Source of the DNA: an uncultured Litoreibacter sp. | Lineage (GTDB): Bacteria > Pseudomonadota > Alphaproteobacteria > Rhodobacterales > Rhodobacteraceae | Length of the DNA stretch: 64,000 bases | Assembly (NCBI GenBank): GCA_947504205.1 | Contig: CANNGL010000003.1 | Coordinates: 496,001 to 560,000, forward strand | Reading direction: 5' to 3' | Shown here: piece after piece, positions 16,682-29,216 of the stretch | Position numbering within the stretch: the stretch's first letter is position 1 | How the letters are laid out: the number at the start of each line of letters is the position of its first letter | Position numbers and translations under genes: made by a program | The notes under the pieces: generated by a model | Told to the model about the DNA's origin: nothing | The model's database searches: none | What the model saw: the letters and a program-made list of their open reading frames with translations, nothing else

Positions 16682-16727
16682 TGGTGCCGCTGAAGGGACT
16701 CGAACCCCCGACCCCATCATTACGAAT
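16682..16727 (-). pseudogene. 3' half of a split tRNA-Thr(CGT) gene
   Basis: The minus strand gives the anticodon loop, 3' anticodon stem, variable loop, T arm with TTCGAGT, acceptor strand CAGCGGC and ACCA of a threonine tRNA. There is no D arm: upstream of the anticodon loop the sequence turns into unrelated DNA. The missing 38-base 5' half is at 29150-29187. Joining the two across the shared core gives a well-formed 76-base tRNA, so this is host tRNA displaced by integration. Confidence 0.88.
16720..16727. other. Attachment core, left end
   Basis: TTACGAAT, the anticodon-loop sequence of tRNA-Thr on the minus strand. The bases on either side differ from the right-hand copy, so the identical core is exactly 8 bases. 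Confidence 0.82.
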
Positions 16728-17051: not shown

Positions 17052-18278
17052 TCAGGCCGCTTCCGAAATCAAATGATCATGGATGCAGAGATGTCGATGG
17101 ACCGCCTGACCTATCGCAAATGCGAGGGGTACCGGCACAGCATTTCCAACTTGAACATACTGAGGCCCGATCTTGTTACCAGCAAATCTAAACGAGTCCG
17201 GGAAACCTTGTAGCCGGGCAGCTTCCCTTACAGAGATAGTCCTGTCCTCAATCGGATGAATGTAGGCGCCCCAATGCGGATCACATTTTGTTAGAATAGT
17301 TGAAGCAAATCCATCCTTATGAAGACGACCATAGCGCTTAGTGTGGTCGGTCAGTTTTGCACGACGCATTCCCGCCGGTAATAGTTCCCTCGGCACATCC
17401 CGCCAGTTGCCGCCCTGAGGGATATGAACAACACGAGCAAGATTAACCTCGGTTAAAACGTGGCCAATATGATTAAAAATTACTGGGGCTCCCTTCTGAG
17501 CCTCTCTCTGGAACGCTGACGTCGCGCGCTTCCAATCTCTGGGCCACTCTTGCAAACCCGACCCACCATCCAGAAGCGGCAGATCACCGATGGCTTGCCA
17601 AACGGTAACCGGCCTTTTTGTAGCACCATTCGGTCGGTTTTTGGGATAGCCAACATGTTTGAAACGTGGCGACCAATGTGTTGCCGAGGGAAGAAGTTCT
17701 GTTGATGGACCAATTCGGCTGGCGACTATAAATGCGCGGCGGCGAACCTGCGGTGTCCCAAATTGTTCGGCCGAGAGGACCTTTACGCAAGGTTCGGAAT
17801 AGCCAAGGTCCTTCAATCCGCTTGTAATTTCTTCGACTACTGAACCACCATCAATCGACAGAATGCCAGGAACGTTCTCCATAACAATCGTCTTTGGGCG
17901 CATGTCTTTAACGATAGAGAGATAATGTTCAAAAAGACGAGCCCTGTCGTCCACAGCGTTTCGCTTGTGATTGTTGTGGCTGAAGGACTGACAAGGTGGT
18001 CCTCCGATAAGGCAATCCAACTCACCCACACCCACGGATGCTTCGGACAGCATGTCTCGCACCGAAACTCCAGAGATCGGGCCTTCGAAAAACGACGTTT
18101 CTGGGAAGTTCAGACGAAAAGTTTCGGATGCCCCTGCGTCCATGTCGTTGCCGCTGGCAATGCACCAGCCCGCCTGACGGAACCCGACGGCGAGACCACC
18201 GGCACCAGCGAACAGGTCAACACACCGAAACCCTTCGGAAAGTTTTTTCCTTCTCTTGTGCAGAGTGACATCGGACAT
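17052..18278 (-). CDS. DNA (cytosine-5-)-methyltransferase
   Basis: The 408-residue enzyme has the C5-MTase motifs in order: I DLFAGAGGLAVGF (about 21-33), IV GGPPCQSFS with the catalytic Cys near 96, VI MENVPG near 133, VIII FGTPQVRRRAFIVA, and IX-X QGFPDSF and YVQVGNAVPVPLA. The region between VIII and IX is the target-recognition part, so the site cannot be read. It transfers methyl groups from S-adenosylmethionine to DNA cytosine. It points away from the ParB-SNF2-Vsr-HNH-GIY operon across a 423-base gap, and probably protects the cell from those nucleases or marks self DNA. Vsr presence also suggests a Dcm-like role. Confidence 0.93.
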   Translation of the reverse strand: MSDVTLHKRRKKLSEGFRCVDLFAGAGGLAVGFRQAGWCIASGNDMDAGASETFRLNFPETSFFEGPISGVSVRDMLSEASVGVGELDCLIGGPPCQSFSHNNHKRNAVDDRARLFEHYLSIVKDMRPKTIVMENVPGILSIDGGSVVEEITSGLKDLGYSEPCVKVLSAEQFGTPQVRRRAFIVASRIGPSTELLPSATHWSPRFKHVGYPKNRPNGATKRPVTVWQAIGDLPLLDGGSGLQEWPRDWKRATSAFQREAQKGAPVIFNHIGHVLTEVNLARVVHIPQGGNWRDVPRELLPAGMRRAKLTDHTKRYGRLHKDGFASTILTKCDPHWGAYIHPIEDRTISVREAARLQGFPDSFRFAGNKIGPQYVQVGNAVPVPLAFAIGQAVHRHLCIHDHLISEAA

Positions 18279-18355
18279 GCTCGATCTTCTTGGTTTGTCA
18301 ATATCTTTTGACGCAGGCGCGCACCGCTACAATATATCGATGCCTAAATCAATGA

Positions 18356-18390
18356 AACAAAAAAAGTGGGCGACCCAAAGCCGCCCACTT
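18356..18390 (-). terminator. Minus-strand intrinsic terminator in the divergent gap
   Basis: AAGTGGGCG (18364-18372) and CGCCCACTT (18382-18390) form a perfect 9-bp stem with a 9-base loop. On the minus strand it is followed by a T-run (A-tract 18358-18363 on plus). It lies upstream of the methyltransferase start, so it would end a minus-strand transcript begun within the gap rather than a known gene. Confidence 0.6.
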
Positions 18391-18482
18391 AGGGAATTTT
18401 CGTTGCAAATCGGATGTCTCAGTGGCATATGTTCCCAAGCTACTAGGCGGCAGCTGTGACATCTGACTGCTTGCCACTTCGG

Positions 18483-18515
18483 GGCCGGTCGCCGTCTGCG
18501 CAGACCGGCCTTTTT
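18483..18515 (+). terminator. Plus-strand intrinsic terminator in the divergent gap
   Basis: GGCCGGTC (18483-18490) and GACCGGCC (18503-18510) form an 8-bp stem, followed by TTTTT. It faces opposite to the hairpin at 18356-18390. No coding region precedes it on the plus strand, so it may end a short noncoding RNA or insulate the operon beginning at 18702. The rest of the 18279-18701 gap has no convincing gene. Confidence 0.6.
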
Positions 18516-18701
18516 CCGTTAGTCTCCCTGCAAACCACGTGGCTTTGGCGCAGGGCTAATCCAGTCTTCCCATCACATCTCCAATCTGGGCGCGGCTGCG
18601 CTCAAGCCGATTCGTATCTGAATCCGATCGTCAGATCAAGCTTGATGTTCGTGCTTGTGTTTGCTAGATGTTGCTCAGGCAAGTTATGCAAGGATCTTTC
18701 A

Positions 18702-19946
18702 ATGACTGAACAAGGCGGAAATCTCGAGAGCCTCCCGAGCGCAGACGCGCGAGTCCTCTACGAGAAAATTGGTAACAAAGAGTGGGAGCTCCGGGAGATG
18801 AGGCTCGACGTTCACGAAGACGTTGCGCTTTGGGCAGACAATCCCCGCTTGCAAACATCACTTATGGAGGGGTTCTCGTCAGAGCTGGAGCTTGAGGAAG
18901 CCCTTCGCGCTTCTCCGGGATACGACGGTCTGCGAAATTCAATCAAAGACATCGGCCAAATGCAGTCGATTTACGTTCAGCGCACAAACACCGGGAAGTA
19001 CTTGGTCTTAGAGGGCGCTACCCGGGTAACCATTCTTCGCGAGCTTGACCGAAAGATCACTACCGGCAAGAAGGAAGGTGAATTTCGGCACGTTCAGGCG
19101 AAAGTTCTTCCTCAGAATTTTAGCGAAAAGGATGTGGCGGTCCTTCTGGCCGGTATCCATGTCCGTGGGACTGGAGTGCGGGCTTGGGGCCGCTACATTG
19201 AGGCCAAGTTCATCTATGAGACAGTTGAGGGACGGCCTGGGCATCCTCCTCTGATGAACCAAGCAACGCTGGCAGAGAACATGGGCAAGACTGGCTCATG
19301 GGTTTCTCGATTAAAAGGTGCCTACGAATTTGCCCTGAAATTCATTGAGCATGTCGACGGAGAGCCGAACCCGCAAAAACTTGCGGCCGAAAAATTCAGC
19401 ACTCTGGAAGAGCTTAGCAAGGCACGAGTGATAGGTTCGCAACTGCGTGATTTTGACAATGAAGCATATGATGAGCTTCGCGAAGAAGTATTTGATATGG
19501 TTCAAAATGACGTTTTCAAAGAGTACCGTGATGCGCGCTTTTTGAAGGAGTTTCACGATGATCCTGACGCATGGGCGCAACTGAAATCTGGCGAGAAACA
19601 TGTGGCCAACAAATTGGCCCAACAGACCCAGGACAAAAGTAGTCACCCAAAAGCAAAAATCTCCGCCATGCCACAGTTGGTTCGGCGAGCAATTGACCGA
19701 GGTGAAGACGGATTTGATGACGACGATATCGCTAGCCTGCAACAGACTATCGATTTGATCGAAGACAAGGTTCACGACGGGGTTCACCCCTACCGCCTCG
19801 CACTTAAGAAGGCCACCAGGACGCTGAACAAGGCCAGCAGGGCCGATGTACTGGACCTTCACCCGTCGGAGATTCAGGAGTTTCGAGACGCCTACGAATA
19901 CTTTGATGGACTTGTAGGCCAGCATGCTCCACATGGAGGGTCTTGA
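18702..19946 (+). CDS. ParB-like N-terminal domain protein of the island defence operon
   Basis: The 414-residue protein has a ParB/Srx-like domain at about residues 35-130: ADNPRLQ, GYDGLRNSIKDIGQMQSIYV, and YLVLEGATRVTILREL, where EGATR replaces the GERR/GEGRR box, then a helical part that includes NQATLAENMGKTGSWVSRLK, like the ParB HTH. The C-terminal 200 residues are helical and unassigned. The ATG at 18702 has AAGGA upstream; longer in-frame readings from 18456 cross a terminator and look noncoding. Gene 1 of five; it overlaps the helicase gene. ParB-fold domains can bind DNA or NTP or act as nucleases. The role here is unknown; it is not a partition system, since no ParA is present. 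Confidence 0.8.
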   Translation: MTEQGGNLESLPSADARVLYEKIGNKEWELREMRLDVHEDVALWADNPRLQTSLMEGFSSELELEEALRASPGYDGLRNSIKDIGQMQSIYVQRTNTGKYLVLEGATRVTILRELDRKITTGKKEGEFRHVQAKVLPQNFSEKDVAVLLAGIHVRGTGVRAWGRYIEAKFIYETVEGRPGHPPLMNQATLAENMGKTGSWVSRLKGAYEFALKFIEHVDGEPNPQKLAAEKFSTLEELSKARVIGSQLRDFDNEAYDELREEVFDMVQNDVFKEYRDARFLKEFHDDPDAWAQLKSGEKHVANKLAQQTQDKSSHPKAKISAMPQLVRRAIDRGEDGFDDDDIASLQQTIDLIEDKVHDGVHPYRLALKKATRTLNKASRADVLDLHPSEIQEFRDAYEYFDGLVGQHAPHGGS

Positions 19947-21348
19947 ATTGGGTTTCGAGCTTCTCAACCATCAAGCGGAGGGCGTGGAATTTCTAACCGA
20001 ACGAGGGGCGGGGCTACTAGCTTTTGAGCAAGGTCTGGGCAAAACCTTTGTAGCGATAGAGGCCTTCAACCGGCTACTGGCCGCAGGTCACGCAAAAAAG
20101 TTGCTTGTGATCTGTCCGAACTCACTCAAGCGCAACTGGTTGGCGGAGTTCGAAAAATTCGCCCCTGAGATTTCAGTCGATGTCGCTGAAGGAACCCCAA
20201 GGCGGCGGCGAGCGACCTTTCGTGAGTCTTCGGCCGCAGTAATAATTACGAGCTATGAAACAGCCCGCTCCGAAACAACTTCCCTGCTCGCTCTGGCTCA
20301 ACGCCAACGAACGGCTTTAGTACTTGACGAGTCCCACGCCACAAAGAACTGGAAATCGCAAACTTCAGCTGCTGCGCGCGCTGTTGCACCACACTGCCAT
20401 TTCCGATGGTTACTTTCCGGGACGCCAGTAACGAACACGGCAACCGACCTCTTTACCCAAGTGGAAATCATCGAGCCTGGGCAAGGATCGCTCGGATCAC
20501 TTGAGGCATTTAAGGCGCGGCTAGAGGATGATCCCACCGCCTCATTTGCTCAGCCTGTAATAGACCGGCTGGTCCTGCGTCGTACCAAGGAACAATGTCT
20601 CGATCTCCCTGATAAATCCTTTGTCGATGTCCGTGTGGAACTCCCTGCTTGGCAACGCCGCCTTTACGATGAAATGCGGGATGAGATGGTGTGCGAGCTC
20701 GAGGCCCTGAGTGGGGAGCAGTACCGCGCCTATGCGACGACTGCTCTCGCGAAGCTTACCCGCCTTGTGCAACTGGCCTGCAATCCGTCACTTATCTTTC
20801 CTGATGCAAAGGGGTCACCTGCGAAATTCGACTCGTTAGACGGGATAATCGAAGATATCCTTTCGGTGCCTAACCGCAAGGTCATCCTGTGGTCGAACTA
20901 CATTAGAACGATCGAAACTCTTCTGGACAGGATACCCGGCTCAGTCGCCATCTACGGCGGTACACCGACGGCTAAACGCCAAGAAATCGCGGCGAGTTTC
21001 CAGAACGACCCAGATGTCCGTGTTCTAATCGCTAACCCAGCCGCAGCAGGAACGGGCTTCACCCTCACGGCCGCCAGCTATACGATCTATGAGTCCCTTT
21101 CCTGGAGGTACGATCACTATGCGCAAAGTCAGGATCGGAACCATCGCATCGGTCAGACTGAACCTGTTACTTATCTTCGGTTGATTGCCGCAGACACGAT
21201 TGAAGAAGCAATTATCTCGGCGTTGGAGAGGAAGTCAGCGCTAGCCCGCAGCCTTCTCGGAGATGAAGGGGCGGGAGATGCAGTTTCCCAGCTTACACAA
21301 GATCAGATGTGTGAACTCCTGCGGTCGAACCGGCTTCCAGAGGTATAG
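19924..21348 (+). CDS. SNF2-family DEAD/DEAH-box helicase/translocase
   Basis: The 474-residue protein is a compact two-lobe SF2 ATPase of the Swi2/Snf2 kind: Q-like NHQAEGVEFL, Walker A FEQGLGKT near 34-41, ITSYET, DESHATKNW near 135, LLSGTPVTN near 164, then the second lobe with VILWSNY, ANPAAAGTGFTL and QSQDRNHRIGQ (motif VI). Such enzymes move along double-stranded DNA rather than unwind it. No nuclease domain is fused. The ATG at 19924 overlaps the ParB-like gene by 23 bases; a TTG at 19948 with GGAGGG seven bases upstream is an equally good start. It probably powers DNA scanning for the nucleases encoded next. Confidence 0.9.
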   Translation: MLHMEGLELGFELLNHQAEGVEFLTERGAGLLAFEQGLGKTFVAIEAFNRLLAAGHAKKLLVICPNSLKRNWLAEFEKFAPEISVDVAEGTPRRRRATFRESSAAVIITSYETARSETTSLLALAQRQRTALVLDESHATKNWKSQTSAAARAVAPHCHFRWLLSGTPVTNTATDLFTQVEIIEPGQGSLGSLEAFKARLEDDPTASFAQPVIDRLVLRRTKEQCLDLPDKSFVDVRVELPAWQRRLYDEMRDEMVCELEALSGEQYRAYATTALAKLTRLVQLACNPSLIFPDAKGSPAKFDSLDGIIEDILSVPNRKVILWSNYIRTIETLLDRIPGSVAIYGGTPTAKRQEIAASFQNDPDVRVLIANPAAAGTGFTLTAASYTIYESLSWRYDHYAQSQDRNHRIGQTEPVTYLRLIAADTIEEAIISALERKSALARSLLGDEGAGDAVSQLTQDQMCELLRSNRLPEV

Positions 21349-21350
21349 TG

Positions 21351-21782
21351 ATGGCGGACAGGATCAGCCCGGAGCAAAGGTCGAGCAACATGTCTCGCAT
21401 CAAGGGGCGGGATACTAAGCCGGAGATTCGGCTGCGTTCGGCGTTGCACCGGGAAGGTTTACGCTATCGGGTTTGCCGAAACGACCTGCCTGGGCGACCA
21501 GACATAGTGTTTCCCCAGCAGAAACTGGCGATTCAGGTCCGAGGGTGCTTTTGGCATCAACACAGCGGCTGCAAGGCGGGGCGCATTCCAAGCTCAAATC
21601 TGGACTATTGGAAGCCAAAGCTTGAGGCGAATGTAGAGCGTGACGCCCAAAAGGACGAGGCCCTCCGTGCATTAGGTTGGCGGGTTATTGTCTTCTGGGA
21701 GTGTGAGCTAAAGACAGATCAAGGTCTCAGTGAAGCCCTGAATTTTATTGTGCGAGAAAAGAAGAAATTATCGAAGGAGTAA
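21351..21782 (+). CDS. vsr: Very-short-patch-repair (Vsr)-type endonuclease
   Basis: The 143-residue protein follows Vsr closely: RSSNMSRIKGRDTKPEIRLR at the N-terminus, LPGRPDIVFP (catalytic Asp), GCFWHQHSGC (metal/active-site His), NVERDAQKDEAL and GWRVIVFWECEL. Classical Vsr nicks next to T:G mismatches left by deamination of 5-methylcytosine, which fits the cytosine methyltransferase nearby. Here, however, the gene lies inside a helicase/nuclease operon rather than beside the methyltransferase, so it may act as a restriction nuclease. ATG at 21351 is preferred over the GTG at 21348 that overlaps the helicase stop. Confidence 0.92.
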   Translation: MADRISPEQRSSNMSRIKGRDTKPEIRLRSALHREGLRYRVCRNDLPGRPDIVFPQQKLAIQVRGCFWHQHSGCKAGRIPSSNLDYWKPKLEANVERDAQKDEALRALGWRVIVFWECELKTDQGLSEALNFIVREKKKLSKE

Positions 21783-21784
21783 TC

Positions 21785-22489
21785 ATGGATCAGATTTCAA
21801 ATTTCGGAGATCAAAGGCAGCAGGGTTACTGCGCACACTGCGGTGGCACAACCGAAACCCGCGATCACGCTCCATCGAAGATACTTCTGGATAAACCCTA
21901 TCCGACAAGTTTGCCGGTCTTGCCCGCCTGCCCCACATGTAACGAAGGGTTCTCCGCCGACGAGGAGTATTTGGCCTGCTTCGTTGAATGTGTCCTTCAT
22001 GGGTCAACCGACCCGGTCAAGTTGTCCCGCCAAAAAGTGAGCCGCATACTGGCGGAAAGTCAGGCTCTACGCGCGCGTATCGAACGTTCCAAGAAGCAGT
22101 CTCCAAATCTCGGCGGTGGCGAAGTCATTGTTTGGCAACCGGAAGAAGGTCGAGTCCGAAATGTGATCTTGAAGCTCGCTAGGTGTCATGCAGCATTCGA
22201 GTTAAACGAACCTCAAATTCGCGACCCAGATCACTACATGGTTACACCGTTGGAGAGTCTTTCCCGTGAACAGCGAGAACATTTTGAAACAGCGCCCGAT
22301 ACGGGTGTTTGGCCGGAGGTCGGTAGCCGGGCAATGCAGCGAATGATCGTTGGGGGTCAGCCGTATTCTGATGGTTGGCTTGAAGTCCAAGAAGGACGTT
22401 ACAGGTACATGGCAGTTGGTGCCGGAAGCGTGATGGTTCGAGGCGTTCTGAGCGAGTACCTTGCATTCGAGGTCATTTGGGACACATGA
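21785..22489 (+). CDS. HNH-type endonuclease-like protein of the island operon
   Basis: The first 60 residues hold a zinc-HNH-like pattern: YCAHCGGTTETRDHAPSKIL (CxxC then DH) and LPACPTCNEGFSADEEYL (CxxC then N and E). This matches the HNH family in which DHxPS replaces DHxxP. The remaining 170 residues, ending in LAFEVIWDT, are unassigned and may recognise DNA or a partner. An AAGGAG site lies six bases before the ATG, and the gene begins 2 bases after vsr. The 3' end overlaps the next gene by 4 bases. Confidence 0.78.
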   Translation: MDQISNFGDQRQQGYCAHCGGTTETRDHAPSKILLDKPYPTSLPVLPACPTCNEGFSADEEYLACFVECVLHGSTDPVKLSRQKVSRILAESQALRARIERSKKQSPNLGGGEVIVWQPEEGRVRNVILKLARCHAAFELNEPQIRDPDHYMVTPLESLSREQREHFETAPDTGVWPEVGSRAMQRMIVGGQPYSDGWLEVQEGRYRYMAVGAGSVMVRGVLSEYLAFEVIWDT

Positions 22490-23337
22490 GGATTTTCATT
22501 ACCCGCGTTTGGGGCTTCGACCCTGAACGCTGGCCAGTCATTACGTTCAGTTTGGAAGGAAATCGGGACAGGCTCCTAAAGGAATCCTCTCCGGGCGACC
22601 GTATCGCGTTCGTGGGCACACTCCGCGAACCGACACCCGAGCCAATGCGTGGCAAGTTGTTGGGCATGGCTGAGATTGGCCGAATTCCTGTGGAAACGGT
22701 AGATGTCATCGGAGACGATGTTCGCGGTTTGCACGACTACGACGAAGAAGGTCAGTTTCGTTGGCCAAAGGCCATTCCAATGGTCCGGGCCTGGCGTTTC
22801 ACGCCGCCTCCAATGCTCCTCGACGTACTAGAAGAACAATTGCCCTATCACGCCACATCTCAGGCAGTTACTCTTTCTCGAGTTGACGCAGAAGCAGTCC
22901 TGAAGCTGGACACGACACCGGCGGCGCTGCCTGAATTGGATTCCTTAGCGAACGCGAAACTACTCGATCAGGCGTTGGCGGCGGGAAAGCCGACGACTGG
23001 TCCTAAGCCCAGTTCATGGACAGGGGAAGCAAGCCGGGACGTGGACAGAGATGCGTTTACTTATGCCTTTCGTTTCGGTTATTCGGATGTCTGGAAAATC
23101 GGTCACGCCGTTGATGTCAATGATCGACTTAAGCAGGTGAACTGCCACATCCCGACCGAGGTCATACCCGAGAAATGGAATGCCCAGTTCCGGCAGCGCT
23201 GGAATAGCGAAACTGATGCCTACGAAATGGAGCAAAGGGTTCTCAAAACCCTCGAGGATTATCGTACGGAGGGCGAACGGGTCAGGTGCTCAGAGGAAGC
23301 ACTTTGGTCAGCTTGGCTGAAAGGAATCGGTGCCTGA
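22486..23337 (+). CDS. Two-domain protein: PUA/EVE-like N-terminus and GIY-YIG-like C-terminus
   Basis: The 283-residue protein starts at the ATG overlapping the HNH stop (ATGA). Residues 1-75 (MRIFITRVWGF, then PGDRIAFVGTLREP) resemble PUA/EVE-type modules, some of which read modified bases. About 60 residues after 185 look like a T5orf172-type GIY-YIG nuclease: FTYAFRFGYSDVWKIGHAVDV, given here as TYAFRFGYSDVWKIG, then DRLKQVN and a distal Glu in YEMEQRVL. The link between is helical. Last gene of the operon. Both domain assignments rest on short motifs; the EVE-like reading is the weaker one. Confidence 0.65.
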   Translation: MRIFITRVWGFDPERWPVITFSLEGNRDRLLKESSPGDRIAFVGTLREPTPEPMRGKLLGMAEIGRIPVETVDVIGDDVRGLHDYDEEGQFRWPKAIPMVRAWRFTPPPMLLDVLEEQLPYHATSQAVTLSRVDAEAVLKLDTTPAALPELDSLANAKLLDQALAAGKPTTGPKPSSWTGEASRDVDRDAFTYAFRFGYSDVWKIGHAVDVNDRLKQVNCHIPTEVIPEKWNAQFRQRWNSETDAYEMEQRVLKTLEDYRTEGERVRCSEEALWSAWLKGIGA

Positions 23338-23543
23338 TCTTCTGTATGTAGAGTTCCTTCCTGCTGACTATCCGAAACTGGCTTTTGCCCTCGGACCGTT
23401 GACGCTATCGTGCTTTGTCAACATATAACCGGACAGACTTTCATTCTGTCGCACACCGCCTCCCTTCCTTTCATAACATGATGAAAAGTCGAGCTTTTTC
23501 TCGAAATGTGCCTATAATGGAGCGTGGCCAGAAGGAGGTCACG

Positions 23544-24707
23544 ATGCCAAGTCTACGTTTTACCCGCCGCACGATTGATGAAATCCCCTTTGCCCAGAAG
23601 GGGCAAGTTCTGTACCGGGACACGATGCTCCCCGGCTTTGGCCTGCGTGTCGGTGCGCAATCCAAGGTTTTCTTTGCCGAAGGACAGGTGAACCGCCGCA
23701 CGCGGCGCGTCACGATTGGCCGCGCTGACATCTTTGCGCCCGAGATTGCCCGCAAGAAGGCCCTGACGATCTTGGGTGACATGGCCGATGGGCACGACCC
23801 CAACGCCGAAAAGCGCCAAGAAGCTGCCGAGCAAGTAACGCTGGAATTGGCGCTGAAACGCTTCCTTGAAGTCCGCAGCTTGTCGGCGCACACGATCAGC
23901 CACTACCAACGCACCGAGCGCCTGTACCTCAAGACATGGCGCAGGAAACCGCTGAATGAGATCACTCGTCAAATGGTGCTGAAAAAGCATCAGGACATTG
24001 GTAAGAAGCACGGGGAGACCACGGCCAACAACGTGATGCGGCATTTCCGGTCGATCCACAATTTCGTTGCGGCCACCCAGGACGACTTCCCCCCGAACCC
24101 GGTCCAAATCCTGACGCAGGCGCGGGCTTGGTATAAGGAACGGCGGCGTCAGACGGTGATTACCGCGCTGGACCTGCCCGCATGGTGGGAAGCTGTGATG
24201 GCGGAGCCGGAGTATTCGCGCGACTTCCTGCTGACCGGGCTGTTCACGGGAATGCGCCGGGGCGAACTGACCACGCTTTGCTGGAAAAATGTGGACCTGA
24301 AAAGCAAGGTGCTGCACCTGCCCACCACGAAGAACGGCGACCCGCTGCACCTCCCGCTGTCCGAATTTCTGGCCAACCTGCTGAGCGAGCGCTGGGCGCG
24401 CAACAACGGCTCCCCTTGGGTGTTCCCTGGACCGGGTCGTACCGGTCATCTGGTCGAAACCAAGAAGTTCCTGCTCCGCGTATCGGCTGGGTCTGGTGTC
24501 AGCTTCACCCTGCACAACCTGCGGCGCACCTTCATCACCATCGCCGAGAGCCTCGACGTGCCTTACTACGCACTCAAACGCCTGCTAAATCACCGCACCA
24601 ATGGGGATGTGACTGGCGGCTATATCGTGGTGAATGCCGAACGCCTGCGGGAACCGGTCGAACTGGTGGCCAAGCGCATCCTGGAACTGAAAGAGCCGCG
24701 CGACTGA
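23544..24707 (+). CDS. int: Tyrosine recombinase (integrase) of the element
   Basis: The 387-residue P4-type integrase has an N-terminal arm-binding domain (YRDTMLPGFGLRVGAQSKVF in part, TIGRADIFAPEIARKKA), a core-binding SAM-like domain near 95-185, and a catalytic domain with R238 in TGMRRGEL, K263 in TTKNGD, H324 and R327 in HNLRRTF, H350 in NHR and Y360 in GGYIV. All catalytic residues are intact. ATG at 23544 follows AAGGAGG; a longer frame from 23415 lacks a ribosome binding site. It should catalyse integration into tRNA-Thr at TTACGAAT. It sits in the middle of the element, unusual since satellite integrases are normally beside an att site. Confidence 0.93.
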   Translation: MPSLRFTRRTIDEIPFAQKGQVLYRDTMLPGFGLRVGAQSKVFFAEGQVNRRTRRVTIGRADIFAPEIARKKALTILGDMADGHDPNAEKRQEAAEQVTLELALKRFLEVRSLSAHTISHYQRTERLYLKTWRRKPLNEITRQMVLKKHQDIGKKHGETTANNVMRHFRSIHNFVAATQDDFPPNPVQILTQARAWYKERRRQTVITALDLPAWWEAVMAEPEYSRDFLLTGLFTGMRRGELTTLCWKNVDLKSKVLHLPTTKNGDPLHLPLSEFLANLLSERWARNNGSPWVFPGPGRTGHLVETKKFLLRVSAGSGVSFTLHNLRRTFITIAESLDVPYYALKRLLNHRTNGDVTGGYIVVNAERLREPVELVAKRILELKEPRD

Positions 24708-25128
24708 TCCTGAGGTGACCCCACCCCATCGACGGCTCTTAGGGTGAGAGCTTGCCACCGACTACCGGTTCAGATCGAATCCACGAGTCCGGTTCGCTGT
24801 AAGACGATAGCGCCTAAGTGTTTAACCACTGATCTTCGAGCTGTTGCCTCGCGCGCGCGTTTGACCGCGTTTGATTGTTCTAGACGGGCTTGCACGAGCT
24901 AACTATGCGATTGAAAACGGCAGGGAATCTTATATAACACAATTGCCTTCAAGAAATATGCCCCAAGCGCGTCGACGACAAACGCAGGGCCGGTGAAAGG
25001 CCGGTAGTAGGACGGTGGGATCAGTTAACGTGTGGTGATCCCTTAAAGGAACGGAAACCCCGCGCCGTAGTCTTCATGCAAACATCCCGCTGTCTCTGCA
25101 GCTGGAATGTTTCAGCTTGGAGATTACT
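24708..25128. other. Noncoding stretch between integrase and AlpA-like gene
   Basis: No credible gene on either strand. It contains an AT-rich region near 24930-24960 (TTATATAAC) that could be a promoter, a small stem GGCCGG-type repeat near 24990, and an imperfect inverted repeat at 25080-25112 just before the AlpA-like gene. Confidence 0.55.
25080..25112. promoter_or_regulatory. Imperfect inverted repeat upstream of the AlpA-like gene
   Basis: AAACATCCCGCTG (25080-25092) faces CAGCTGGAATGTTT (25099-25112), leaving a 6-base loop; one base bulges. It lies 17 bases before the AlpA-like start and overlaps its leader. It may be an operator for the element's XRE or AlpA regulator, or an RNA hairpin. 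Confidence 0.35.
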
Positions 25129-25335
25129 ATGGCTGAATCCAAAAAACTCGACCTGCTGACTACTGAACAGGTCGCCGAATACACTCATATGAGCGCGTCT
25201 TTCTTTGAGAAACGCCGTGCCCACAAAAAGAGCCCTGCCTATCTGAAAATCGGTGCGCGCGTATTCTATCGCCGCGCCGTTATTGACGCATGGCTGGAAG
25301 CTCGCAGCTGTGAGGTATTCACTCATGGCGCATAA
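25129..25335 (+). CDS. AlpA/excisionase-like helix-turn-helix protein
   Basis: The 68-residue protein (start MAESKKLDLLTTEQVAEY) is almost only a MerR/AlpA-type winged HTH: LLTTEQVAEYTHMSASFFEK, SPAYLKIGARVFYRRAVID and AWLEAR. This is the usual small DNA-binding protein of P4-like satellites, PICIs and integrative elements, acting as excisionase or as activator of int or replication genes. GGAG lies 8 bases before the ATG. The gene overlaps the primase/helicase gene by 11 bases, so the two are coupled. Confidence 0.85.
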   Translation: MAESKKLDLLTTEQVAEYTHMSASFFEKRRAHKKSPAYLKIGARVFYRRAVIDAWLEARSCEVFTHGA

Positions 25336-27622
25336 TCTGAAACCCGACCCGACCCGTGCCGTTGAGTTCCTCTGCTGGCTGAACCCAGAGGCCTCTTTCT
25401 ATCTTGAGTCGATGGCGAACAAAGGCAAGGCGTCTCCGAAGGCAAAGGTCTTCGGACCTGCGGAACACGAGCAGGCCGTGGCCTTCGTTGCGTCTGGCAA
25501 TTCAGATGACACCCAGCGCAACATGTACTTCCTGCCGAATGCCGAGTTCTTGGAGGGCGCGCGCAAGAAAGAAAACTTTTCCGCCGTGCGCTTCCTGCAT
25601 GTCGATCTGGACTACAAAGACTATCCTGGCGACGAAAACGAAGTAGCAGACTACGTGATGGACATCCTCCTCGACGGCAAGAAGCGTCCGAAGGGTATTC
25701 CGCTGCCTACCGCGATCTCGTTTACGGGTGGTGGCTGTCAGGCAGTGTGGAAGCTGGACGAGCCGTTGAGCATCGACAAGGCCGAGGAACTCAATAAAGC
25801 CTTGCTGTTTGTCCTTCAGGGCGGGCCGGGGACGCACAACGCCGACCGCCTGCTTCGCCTGCCTTGGACAATGAACTGGCTCAATGACATGAAGCGCGCG
25901 GATGGCCGCGAACCTGCTTTGTCTTGGGCGTTCGAACCGATGGACCTGACCAAGCCGCCCCGCACCTACTCGGCGGCTGACTTCCGGGTGAAGCTGCCCA
26001 AAGAGGAAGCCAAACCCAACGGGGAACTTTCGGTGTTGGCCGCACCTGTGGTCGAGATCGAACCGCTCCCACTTCCTGATCATCTTTATGAAGTGCTCCC
26101 CCCGGAACCGGAATGGGCCGAGGCGATCATGACGGGGAACAATCCGCCTGGAAGAACCTACCCGTCCCGCTCGGAACTGGTTTTTGCGGCTATCATCTGG
26201 ATGCTGGGCCAAGGTATGCAGCCGGGGCATGTCCTAGCGATTATCCTGTCACCAGACGTGGGCATCAGCGCACATGTGCTCCAGAATCCCAATCCGCGTG
26301 CGTACGCGCACAGGCAAGTTGTGCGAGCAATGGCTGCGATTGAGGTACGTACAGGCGGCTGGCCGATCCGCGATGGTGATGATCGCCCCATTCGGAATTT
26401 TCCGCAAAACATCCGTTACGCGCTTGCTGTGTTGGGCGTCGATGCCCAGCGCAACACGTTCACGCAGACGGACGAGTTTCGCGGCTACGGTCTTGATGGG
26501 CGTGACCTGAACGATATCGTGGAAATACTGTCCAGCGCGTTCCTGCGCGATTTGGACTTCATCGCAGCACCCGCCTACATCAAGCGTGAGTTGCTGGCCA
26601 TCGCGCACGAGCAACAGTACCACCCTGTGAAAGACTATCTTGGCGGGTTGGCGTGGGACGGTACGCCTCGCATCGACAAATGGTTGGCCGAATATTGCGG
26701 TGCCGAAGACAACGAGTTGAACGCCGAATTTGGCAGCAAACTTTTGATCGCAGGCGTGCGTTGCATCAAACAGCCGGGCGTCAAGTTCGACACGATGCTG
26801 GTGCTCGAAGGTGCGCAGGGGGCAGGTAAATCCCAGATTGCTCAACGTCTTGCCATCCGGGATGAGTGGTTCTGCGGCAGCCTCGACCTGAAGAGCGACG
26901 ACAAGACCAAAGCCGAAATGATGACCCGTGCTTGGGTTGTCGAGTGTCAGGAGTTGGACGGCATGAACAAGACGACGAGCCAGAGCTTGAAAAAGTTCTT
27001 GAGCACCGCTGTCGACATGTTCCGTCCTGCCTACGCGCGAAATGCCACGGAGTTTCGTCGTCACTGCATAATCTTAGGCACGACAAACGAGCGCGCCTAC
27101 CTACGCGACCGCACGGGTAATCGTCGGGTCTGGCCGGTGACTGTTGGGCAAATTGATCTTAAGCGCTTTACGGTCGAAGTCGATCAGCTTTGGGCAGAGG
27201 CGGTCGTACGAGAGGCCAAGGGCGAGTCGATCACCTTGTCGCAACAACTGTGGGATGCCGCTTCAGTCTTGCAGGGGCAACGTATGGTGGAAGACGCTTT
27301 TGAGGACGTCTTAAGCGCCGCCTTTAGCGAAACCGAAGGACGGGTGTCGATGGACAGCGTTAAGTTACTTCTGGGTCTCGACACGGCGCGTATGTTGCCG
27401 ATGGATGCTGAGCGTATCAATTCGGTCATGGCTAAGATGGGCTGGGACTATGGCACCCATCGGTTACACGACCTGGGTCGGCGTGAAAAACGCCAGCGCA
27501 AAGGGTTCGCGCACGGCGACATGGATGAGCGCAAGACTGAGTTCATCGCACACCGTATGGACAGTGGTGCGGTCGTGATCGTGCCTCTTGATACACGGTA
27601 TGAAGATGAACCGCCGTTTTGA
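25325..27622 (+). CDS. Primase-helicase (prim-pol domain plus VapE-like ATPase), element replication protein
   Basis: About 765 residues. The N-terminal third looks like an archaeo-eukaryotic primase: HVDLDYKDYPG near 88 (metal-binding Asp pair), ISFTGGGCQAVW near 132 and DRLLRLPWTMNW near 175. A middle part with EVLPPEPEWAEAI and a helical region precedes a VapE/D5-like SF3-type ATPase: Walker A EGAQGAGKSQIAQR near 497, Walker B-like WVVECQELDGMNK, and LGTTNERAYLRDRTGNRRVW. This pairing starts and unwinds element DNA. The start is at 25325, inside the end of the AlpA-like gene. It supports autonomous replication after excision. Confidence 0.88.
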   Translation: MAHNLKPDPTRAVEFLCWLNPEASFYLESMANKGKASPKAKVFGPAEHEQAVAFVASGNSDDTQRNMYFLPNAEFLEGARKKENFSAVRFLHVDLDYKDYPGDENEVADYVMDILLDGKKRPKGIPLPTAISFTGGGCQAVWKLDEPLSIDKAEELNKALLFVLQGGPGTHNADRLLRLPWTMNWLNDMKRADGREPALSWAFEPMDLTKPPRTYSAADFRVKLPKEEAKPNGELSVLAAPVVEIEPLPLPDHLYEVLPPEPEWAEAIMTGNNPPGRTYPSRSELVFAAIIWMLGQGMQPGHVLAIILSPDVGISAHVLQNPNPRAYAHRQVVRAMAAIEVRTGGWPIRDGDDRPIRNFPQNIRYALAVLGVDAQRNTFTQTDEFRGYGLDGRDLNDIVEILSSAFLRDLDFIAAPAYIKRELLAIAHEQQYHPVKDYLGGLAWDGTPRIDKWLAEYCGAEDNELNAEFGSKLLIAGVRCIKQPGVKFDTMLVLEGAQGAGKSQIAQRLAIRDEWFCGSLDLKSDDKTKAEMMTRAWVVECQELDGMNKTTSQSLKKFLSTAVDMFRPAYARNATEFRRHCIILGTTNERAYLRDRTGNRRVWPVTVGQIDLKRFTVEVDQLWAEAVVREAKGESITLSQQLWDAASVLQGQRMVEDAFEDVLSAAFSETEGRVSMDSVKLLLGLDTARMLPMDAERINSVMAKMGWDYGTHRLHDLGRREKRQRKGFAHGDMDERKTEFIAHRMDSGAVVIVPLDTRYEDEPPF

Positions 27623-28750: not shown

Positions 28751-28963
28751 ATGGACATCAAGGCGGTCGTAGGCAGGAACGTAAGGAGATACCGAGAGCT
28801 GAAAGGCATCTCGCAGGAGGAACTTGCGTTTGACGCGGATTTGCACCGGACCTATGTCAGCGGCGTCGAGCGTGGAATACGAAATCCGACCGTACTGATC
28901 GTCGCAAAACTCGCGGAAGCGCTGAGCATAGCACCGTCTAAACTTCTAGAAACAAAGGAATAA
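28751..28963 (+). CDS. XRE-family repressor-like regulator
   Basis: A 70-residue protein made of one Cro/C1-type HTH: VGRNVRRYRELKGISQEELA, then HRTYVSGVERGIRNPTV and VAKLAEAL. This size and layout are typical of element repressors and of controller (C) proteins of restriction-modification systems. It lies at the right edge of the element, far from the methyltransferase, so a master repressor of the element is the simpler reading. No strong ribosome binding site is visible before the ATG. Confidence 0.85.
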   Translation: MDIKAVVGRNVRRYRELKGISQEELAFDADLHRTYVSGVERGIRNPTVLIVAKLAEALSIAPSKLLETKE

Positions 28964-28975
28964 TAGGAGAAGGGG

Positions 28976-29051
28976 TGGTGCCGCTGATAGGACTCGAACC
29001 TACGACCCCATCATTACGAATGACGTGCTCTACCAGCTGAGCTACAGCGGC
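28976..29051 (-). tRNA. tRNA-Thr(CGT), complete, carried by the element
   Basis: 76 bases including an encoded CCA. Acceptor GCCGCTG/CAGCGGC, D arm GCTCAGCTGGTAGAGC, anticodon stem CGTCA/TGATG, loop TTCGTAA with anticodon CGT, T arm GTAGG-TTCGAGT-CCTAT. It differs from the split host gene in the D loop (GCTCAGC versus GCTCAGA) and in the T stem (GTAGG/CCTAT versus GGGGG/CCCTT), so it is a diverged replacement rather than a repaired copy. Confidence 0.95.
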
Positions 29052-29089: not shown

Positions 29090-29149
29090 TTACTGCGCGC
29101 CTTCTCTAACTGACTGGTCTTGAACGTCAATCGCGGATGGACCCGCTAC

Positions 29150-29157
29150 TTACGAAT
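29150..29157. other. Attachment core, right end
   Basis: TTACGAAT, identical to 16720-16727 and flanked by different bases on the element side. It is the anticodon-loop end of the 5' half of the split tRNA. Confidence 0.82.
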
Positions 29158-29187
29158 GACGTGCTCTACCATCTGAGCTACAGCGGC
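29150..29187 (-). pseudogene. 5' half of the split tRNA-Thr(CGT) gene
   Basis: On the minus strand it gives acceptor strand GCCGCTG, D arm GCTCAGATGGTAGAGC, 5' anticodon stem CGTCA and loop TTCGTAA, then changes to unrelated sequence. With 16682-16727 it rebuilds one complete tRNA. A host promoter may still transcribe it into the element, towards the complete tRNA about 100 bases further on. Confidence 0.88.
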
Positions 29188-29216
29188 TTCGGCGCGGTCT
29201 CTAGCATCGCGTCGCG

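Follow-up and report, generated by a model that had tools for sequence, protein, structure and literature searches.

The window, a stretch of 64,000 nucleotides from an uncultured Litoreibacter sp., includes a 12.3 kb mobile element that is integrated in a tRNA-Thr gene and carries a set of six genes at one edge. The integration target, tRNA-Thr(cgt), was found by ARAGORN and Rfam on the minus strand (28976..29051), and its 3' end (28976-29021) is the right attachment copy of a 46-nt direct repeat, whose left copy is a partial tRNA-Thr 3' end at 16682..16727 (91% identical). The element further encodes, all on the plus strand, a tyrosine integrase (23415..24707, start codon uncertain; PF00589 E 4e-13, PHROG integrase E 2e-47), a VapE-type primase/helicase (25253..27622, start uncertain; PF05272 E 1.3e-68) and two small HTH proteins recognized as ORFs only, one excisionase/AlpA-like (25117..25335) and one an XRE-like regulator (28751..28963), both by eye. 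The repeat, integrase and primase bear out the proposal, made in an earlier sequence-only reading, that the six genes are cargo of one mobile element. A VapE gene 77% identical to that of the element lies, at neighbourhood level only, near a type I R-M cluster (hsdR/S/M) in another genome, so that the cargo slot of the element looks defence-like. The locus is also present in an IMG/VR contig.

The first of the six genes encodes a C5-cytosine DNA methyltransferase (MTase) of 408 aa on the minus strand (17052..18278), facing five plus strand genes that start at 18702. These five are as tightly packed as had been described: the genes for a ParB-like protein and an SNF2-family motor overlap by 14 bases, gaps of 2 bases separate SNF2 from a Vsr-family nuclease and Vsr from an HNH-like protein, and the latter overlaps by 4 bases with the gene of a GIY-YIG-type protein. 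The MTase matches PF00145 (DNA_methylase, E 8.4e-61) and PADLOC MTase_II (E 1e-108), and the motifs GPPCQ, ENV, QVRRR and GNAVP were read by eye; the host genome encodes two C5-MTases in all. The divergent intergenic region (18279..18701) includes two stem-loops, a terminator-like one on the minus strand (18364-18390) and one on the plus strand (18483-18510). Both recur in a related locus, L002, where inspection by eye showed two pair changes of the compensatory kind in the second stem; neither is present in L003 or L017. Folding gave z -2.75 for the first stem and z -1.68 for the plus strand stretch. Terminator-like sites across the whole region were not in excess (9 vs 8.4 by chance), and the four Rfam matches (E 0.07-0.9) were all under the gathering score. 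A comparison of the intergenic DNA with 61 related genomes returned its own genome only among the matches listed, the genome of L002 not being among those rows.

The ParB-like protein (414 aa; 18702..19946, plus strand; ATG after AAGGAT) has a ParB/Srx-type N domain, with an EGATR motif seen by eye, and a ParB-type HTH. Pfam gave no ParB match and the NCBIfam ParB match was weak (E 0.023); a ParB-like PHROGs model matched residues 75-140 (E 2.7e-7), and profile comparison ties the protein to plasmid proteins annotated as 'ParB N-terminal domain-containing'. In a structure model of low confidence (pLDDT 54), residues 158-290 align with ParB, Noc and KorB, and Foldseek returned nothing for the model at E 0.001. 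The N domain and HTH together give moderate support for putative membership of the ParB superfamily. The PADLOC candidates for this protein were partial and weak (PDC-M38A, E 3e-6, 69-230 of 715; PD-Lambda-5_A, E 7e-4, 13-89 of 493).

The neighbouring gene (19933..21348, plus strand) encodes a compact SNF2-family motor of 471 aa that comprises PF00176 (E 7.6e-36) and Helicase_C (PF00271, E 6e-12), with no further domain and no DNA-recognition domain found. Its best solved relative is 1z63 (E 2.4e-36), and its PADLOC matches to ZorD, DpdE and DrmD cover the motor region of these proteins.

Three different nuclease folds had been proposed downstream, and two of these are backed by family models. 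The Vsr-family nuclease (143 aa; 21351..21782, plus strand; Vsr E 1e-27) matches TIGR00632 (E 3e-45) at 153.3 bits, above the curated cut-off of 97.85. The protein of 283 aa at 22486..23337 (plus strand) has a C-terminal GIY-YIG-type (MUG113/T5orf172) domain confined to residues 204-272 (PF13455 E 2e-5; 25.5 bits vs a cut-off of 22.3), its only PADLOC match is PDC-S57 (E 0.049), and its counterpart in L017 scores under the Pfam cut-off. The HNH assignment relies on a pattern and a weak match: the protein of 234 aa (21785..22489, plus strand) has an N-terminal Zn-ribbon/HNH pattern, CxxC..(D/E)H..CN, that was seen in nine relatives, matches the HNH endonuclease 4h9d at E 0.033, and has a C-terminal part with no fold assigned. 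No match at E 0.1 was found for it in Pfam, NCBIfam, PHROGs or PADLOC, and Foldseek and VIA gave no convincing PDB match for its model, an absence compatible with an HNH fold. Relatives of it are found in other phyla with no ParB or SNF2 match nearby, several of the flanks being short.

Orthologous sets occur in other genomes with the gene order kept, as had been anticipated, and chance adjacency of the six genes is therefore untenable. The set is rare: in a survey of four overlapping samples of 292-398 genomes, full-length ParB was found in four further genomes, one of which lacked SNF2; SNF2 is absent next to the ParB of L030. Six loci are intact (the window, L002, L003, L015, L017 and L029). 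All six have MTase, ParB and SNF2, with the MTase on the strand opposite to ParB-SNF2, and five have Vsr, so the expected recurrence of the full set holds for its core, which is MTase, ParB and SNF2 plus Vsr (5/6). HNH and GIY are optional, each occurring in three of the six. Every intact locus has, in addition to any Vsr, some nuclease-like gene, the complements being HNH with GIY, HNH, GIY, NotI or Mrr. In L015 a NotI restriction enzyme (E 5.7e-97) lies between ParB and MTase, and in L029 Mrr (E 7e-15) lies beside the MTase; a DUF4365 protein (P0017) considered as the L029 effector was dropped, as it is on the far side of a tRNA-Arg gene.

The settings of these loci vary. The window locus is in tRNA-Thr, L003, L015 and L029 adjoin tRNA-Asn, -Gly and -Arg genes, respectively, and the integrases differ among the window, L002 and L029. 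The ParB tree unites L003 and L015 (98/97), a grouping that the MTase rejects (p-AU 1e-4), and the ParB data in turn reject the grouping of the window with L002, L003 and L017 (p-AU 1.3e-4). This conflict between trees (AU p about 1e-4) indicates that parts of the locus have been exchanged between loci as modules. A target sequence shared by the MTases is unsupported, residues 200-280 being only 15-22% identical between the window and L015. Synonymous change is near saturation, which makes dN/dS incomputable for most pairs, and non-synonymous change is low in every gene, strictest in ParB (pN 0.055, window-L002), a pattern that points to strong purifying selection on all genes.

Vsr is known as a repair enzyme of 5-methylcytosine damage. 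In an alignment to 1cw0, the window Vsr keeps Glu25, Asp51 and His69 of the E. coli enzyme, and His64, which we take to be catalytic, is replaced by Arg64; the His at this position was our mark of a short-patch repair enzyme. Arg64 was found in 9 of 41 rows (37 separate places) of a first survey, all in this operon. Of the five intact loci that have Vsr, four have Arg at this position, vs 2 of 109 other Vsr proteins in a wider control. Those two lie outside the operon, one (L102) beside a protein that is EcoRII-like by eye. The position is not strictly invariant, since 11 Asn and one Asp were also seen among the 109. The idea of a dead enzyme was dropped on account of these Arg, Asn and Asp cases; what we claim from the alignment is an altered active site. 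Because Arg replaces His64 of the E. coli enzyme in the operon Vsr, plain repair by this protein is doubtful, as the sequence-only reading had suspected; the same substitution makes Vsr no safe choice as the cutter. Nothing relevant on the Vsr histidines was found in the literature searched, where coverage of preprints and subscription journals was partial.

We predict from these features that the locus is a mobile, modular R-M-like defence locus built round a ParB-SNF2 scanning module, and give this reading a probability of roughly 0.55. The C5-MTase, judging by its family, would methylate target sites of the host and thereby mark self DNA. The ParB-like protein would bind DNA through its HTH and load the SNF2 protein, as suggested by its fold, the overlapping genes and the pairing of the two in all six intact loci. 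SNF2 would then travel on double-stranded DNA using ATP hydrolysis, an activity established for the family, and on meeting unmarked DNA the complex may recruit a nuclease that cuts. This nuclease would be exchangeable, of the HNH and/or GIY-YIG type in the window and NotI or Mrr elsewhere. The substitution and strong conservation of the Arg64 Vsr suggest that this protein has probably been adapted to work with the MTase or with the complex, and is less likely to be the main cutter. Several observations count against the defence reading: the rarity of the set, the commonness of Vsr paired with an MTase alone, the HNH relatives of other phyla without a ParB or SNF2 match, the low-confidence ParB model, the L030 ParB lacking SNF2 and the low GIY score in L017.

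The MTase of the window could alternatively guard the element's own DNA. Together with ParB and SNF2 it would modify that DNA on entry into a new host, in the way suggested for polyvalent proteins of the DarB/DdrB type, and the nucleases would be hitch-hikers. That the locus is carried by a small mobile element and also occurs on an IMG/VR contig fits such a role, and the available part of PMC5512222 describes comparable roles for SNF2-methylase dyads and for ParB domains of phages and conjugative elements. We consider it unlikely, given that DarB-type methylases act on adenine and the window MTase belongs to the C5 family, and that the nuclease-like gene besides Vsr is a constant companion, in one case a NotI with MTase and Vsr.

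It is also improbable that two unrelated sets of neighbours are involved, an orphan MTase with a Vsr repair enzyme on one side and ParB-SNF2-HNH-GIY as maintenance or other element genes on the other. The pairing of Vsr with an MTase is indeed common: in a set of 80 Vsr loci from viruses, taken with flanks of 1.5 kb, an MTase match was present at 64 and an SNF2 match at two, both of the latter being of this operon. Vsr adjoins the MTase in L015, and the MTase and ParB trees conflict. Yet in this ParB subfamily the MTase accompanies ParB-SNF2 in all intact loci despite differing sites and integrases, Vsr lies within the ParB-SNF2 operon in four loci and has Arg64 there, and no match to ParA, the adjacent ATPase of a ParABS system, was found among the eight element proteins searched (Pfam, PHROGs).

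Least likely is a type II R-M system that ParB-SNF2 would regulate or assist in repair, for instance by stripping proteins from DNA or by controlling the MTase via the intergenic region. In its favour, NotI, MTase and Vsr of L015 make up a plain type II set, ParB contains an HTH and is directed towards the start of the MTase, and two loci have the stem-loops in common. Against it, type II cleavage needs no SNF2 motor, no REase family is recognized in the window genes, L003 and L017 show none besides HNH or GIY, and these two lack the stem-loops.

A related ParB-SNF2 pair occurs in a second gene set, on plasmids of Rhizobium, Mesorhizobium, Roseomonas and Bradyrhizobium and in G075. Its ParB is homologous to that of the window (hhalign 97.8%), and its Bradyrhizobium SNF2 copy ranked top of 563 plasmid records. 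This set has ParB in two or three copies, along with genes of the DndB-like, radical-SAM and HSP90-like types and, in most cases, PIN; a DndB-like gene was not seen in G075, and no C5 MTase or Vsr is among the annotated genes listed in the plasmid gene tables, which are incomplete. We tentatively suggest that a site-binding ParB clamp, by loading a bare SNF2, might form a portable scanning engine for at least two unrelated marking systems (C5-methylase; DndB-like/radical-SAM) with swappable nucleases, and that in the methylase version the Arg64 Vsr, its active site rebuilt, may have been recruited from mismatch repair as a reading or cutting subunit. Were this so, it would be a new restriction architecture in which the attacker's sequence recognition resides in a partition-type protein: a chromosome-partition fold would have been turned into a restriction targeting subunit, its motor partner would be common to systems that mark differently, and the locus would be a test case for Vsr drawn into defence. 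The natural swaps of HNH, GIY, NotI and Mrr make the role of the cutter testable by exchange.

No description of the composition ParB, SNF2, MTase and nucleases was found in the literature searched (preprints and subscription journals covered in part), and the PADLOC 2023 protein models, system rules aside, name no whole set, in line with the expectation that the locus would be left unassigned. The PADLOC families shown are the best 25 of 65 for the MTase, the best 25 of 41 for SNF2 and complete lists otherwise. Among them, DrmMII (C5 methylase) and DrmD (SNF2-type) match the window MTase and SNF2, and the parallel drawn with DISARM is limited to these two; membership was rejected, as DrmA, DrmB and DrmC are not among the families shown for the eight element proteins. 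The window SNF2, at 471 aa, corresponds to the motor part of DrmD only, and the DrmD equivalog is far below its cut-off. The best PADLOC matches of the motor are ZorD of Zorya type I (E 1.6e-59) and DpdE of Dpd (E 4e-53). These models are longer than the window protein (857-1293 positions for the four best), the NCBIfam equivalogs are far below cut-off (90 of 1500 bits for ZorD, 46 of 500 for DpdE), and neither ZorA and ZorB nor other Zorya or Dpd components are among the families shown for the eight proteins.

Type II R-M systems with Vsr, such as the NotI type of L015 and E. coli Dcm-Vsr, combine MTase and Vsr in one locus, as does the window, which differs in the lack of a recognized REase family among its genes, in Arg64 and in the added ParB-SNF2. 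It has an MTase plus HNH-like and GIY-type proteins, and L015 keeps its NotI REase together with ParB-SNF2. In the YprA-helicase systems ARMADA and Druantia, a Vsr domain that is in places predicted inactive is likewise coupled to a defence helicase; there, Vsr is fused to YprA-family helicases, and 'ParB' is absent from the available text (PMC12458937). The MORC/paraMORC R-M operons are laterally mobile and combine a SWI2/SNF2 helicase, a cytosine methylase, HNH-type DNases and Vsr-type nucleases, according to the part of PMC2292703 that was available. They are built round GHKL (MORC) ATPases, whereas no HATPase match was found among the eight element proteins, and 'ParB' does not appear in that text, whereas the window locus has a ParB-like gene. 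ParB-superfamily nucleases and SNF2-methylase-HNH-Vsr R-M operons are, as far as the available parts of PMC2292703 and PMC5512222 describe them, known precedents for the locus.

A scan of genome contigs with the HNH-like protein identified ten loci, two of which (L002 and L003) include the methyltransferase, ParB, SNF2, Vsr and HNH genes together, L002 encoding the GIY-YIG-type protein in addition. L010 is a decayed copy with fragments of the HNH and GIY-YIG genes and, by eye, a Vsr remnant. In L004 and L007 Vsr and methyltransferase genes lie some kilobases from the HNH gene, within 10 kb, and no match to ParB or SNF2 was found in either. In L004–L009 (some flanks are short) members of the HNH-like family have neither a ParB nor an SNF2 match near them; these loci are from Xanthomonas, an alphaproteobacterial MAG, Planctomycetes, Chloroflexota, Opitutaceae and Gammaproteobacteria.

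ParB was searched as a single sequence in 292 genomes and as a five-row profile in 385, 398 and 394 genomes, in overlapping samples. Full-length matches were found in four genomes besides its own (G052, G582, G465 and G1176, the genome of L002), and every other match in these samples was partial. Two scans of viral contigs revealed one IMG/VR contig, L017. There are six intact ParB-SNF2 loci: the window, L002, L003 (Jannaschia rubra), L015 (G052), L017 and L029 (G582). The methyltransferase is encoded on the strand opposite to ParB in all six. L045 is a partial copy (end of SNF2, Vsr, HNH) whose Vsr is, by eye, identical in reading to that of L003. The ParB relative of G465 (L030, 9211–10497; 48%) stands alone, with no SNF2 match in 19.5 kb; a tRNA-Leu gene is close by, and the genome measures 2.2 Mb. 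Adjacent pairs of ParB-like genes right behind a gene that by eye resembles a recombinase gene are present in L031–L034, from several genomes of the class.

The nucleases vary between the intact loci. HNH is present in the window, L002 and L003, and GIY-YIG in the window, L002 and L017, the L017 copy scoring below the Pfam cut-off (E 6e-4). L015 encodes NotI (E 5.7e-97) ahead of the methyltransferase and Vsr, and in L029, where no Vsr match was found, an Mrr nuclease adjoins the methyltransferase. Given this distribution, every one of the six intact loci has a nuclease-like gene that is not Vsr. The HNH slot of L017 (13063–13689) encodes a different protein of 208 amino acids with one N-terminal transmembrane segment (by eye), which weakly matches a PADLOC 1TM 'Effector' (E 1.6e-4).

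Alignment with 1cw0 places Arg64 of the window Vsr at His64 of E. coli Vsr, which we take to be catalytic; Glu25, Asp51 and His69 are retained. All copies of Vsr inside the ParB-SNF2 operon carry Arg64 (window, L002, L003, L017 and the partial L045). In a first set of Vsr proteins from elsewhere (n = 32; 30 loci were retrieved of 76 matches, 29 without our own) there are 29 His, L015 included, and 3 Asn. A second set (77 distinct sequences from 80 of 303 loci, two operon copies excluded, residues taken from the CFWH motif) has 66 His, 8 Asn, 1 Asp and 2 Arg, which gives 95 His, 11 Asn, 1 Asp and 2 Arg among 109 sequences, the sets possibly overlapping. Since the operon copies are related, Arg64 represents one or few events.

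Between the window and its relatives, synonymous differences amount to 0.69–0.91 per site and non-synonymous differences to 0.055–0.39, with HNH and GIY-YIG compared over three loci each. ParB is the most conserved gene between the window and L002 (pN 0.055), followed by SNF2 (0.072), the methyltransferase (0.124), Vsr (0.137), HNH (0.140) and GIY-YIG (0.149). L003 and L015 group in the ParB tree (support 98/97), a group rejected by the methyltransferase data (p-AU 1e-4). The window, L002, L003 and L017 group weakly (52/92) in the methyltransferase tree, which includes two long outgroups, and the ParB data reject this group (p-AU 1.3e-4); the tested groups were picked after identities were known. 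SNF2 agrees with ParB, not significantly (86/88; p-AU 0.13). The methyltransferase, Vsr and nuclease side has probably been swapped against ParB-SNF2.

The region between the methyltransferase and ParB genes of the window (18279–18701) contains stem-loops at 18364–18390 (minus strand) and 18483–18510 (plus strand). Both occur in L002, the second with two compensatory pairs (by eye), and neither in L003 or L017. They are possible leader RNAs or attenuators.

The element is bordered on the left by 46 nt that repeat the 3' end of tRNA-Thr (16682–16727) and on the right by the intact tRNA-Thr (28976–29051). Inside it are the cargo, the integrase, a VapE-type primase and two HTH genes, a small one ahead of the primase gene and another behind it. 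Just outside, at 29140–29190, a 51-nt stretch repeats part of the 5' half of tRNA-Thr (88%), which an earlier integration may have left behind. The tRNA genes near the other loci are Asn (L003), Gly (L015) and Arg (L029), with none in the stretches examined of L002 and L017; among the loci examined, attachment repeats were found in the window and L029 only. The L029 integrase is 29% identical to that of the window, the L002 integrase does not match it at E 1e-3, and no integrase was identified for L003, L015 or L017. VapE was matched in two of 61 related genomes, its own not counted. In one of the two, at the locus L092, with hsdM, hsdS and hsdR nearby, VapE is 77% identical over residues 160–789, its N-terminal part being in a different frame. 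VapE- or primase-type genes are also present in L029 and L017.

A second gene set includes a related ParB-SNF2 pair. The best-ranked of 563 plasmid records matching SNF2 was Bradyrhizobium sp. 187 (36%), one of five plasmids (with two from Rhizobium and one each from Mesorhizobium and Roseomonas) on which SNF2 is accompanied by ParB-like genes, two or three in number, and by genes for a small, a DGQHR/DndB-like and an 'ATP-binding' protein. Four of the five also encode a protein annotated as radical SAM, and four a PIN-like protein. SNF2, the small protein and two ParB-like genes recur in the genome G075, accompanied by an HSP90-like ATPase (E 7e-9) and a gene weakly matching radical SAM (E 0.003); no DGQHR gene is in its ORF list. 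ParB profiles of the two sets match over residues 37–245 (probability 97.8%, E 8.8e-13). ParB-SNF2 therefore has at least two kinds of gene neighbourhood. The second set may represent an undescribed DNA-marking or defence system. It comprises the plasmid loci L048–L052 and the chromosomal L016, with radical-SAM and HSP90-like ATPase genes and mostly with the PIN protein; L016 lacks the DGQHR/DndB-like gene, and its small protein shows by eye a PDL...GEAK motif of the PD-(D/E)XK type.

From the anatomy of the locus we infer a modular restriction-modification-like defence system, in which the methyltransferase would mark self DNA, ParB-SNF2 would scan and an exchangeable nuclease would cut. The strongest rival is that the locus protects the element's own DNA, a role proposed for SNF2-methylase dyads (PMC5512222). 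The combination of ParB, SNF2, Vsr and a C5 methylase was not found in the portions of the literature examined. PADLOC would probably class the methyltransferase and Vsr as a short-patch-repair pair. Precedents for the parts include SNF2-HNH-Vsr-methylase operons (PMC2292703) and a HEPN family adjoining ParB nuclease and methylase genes (PMC3710099).
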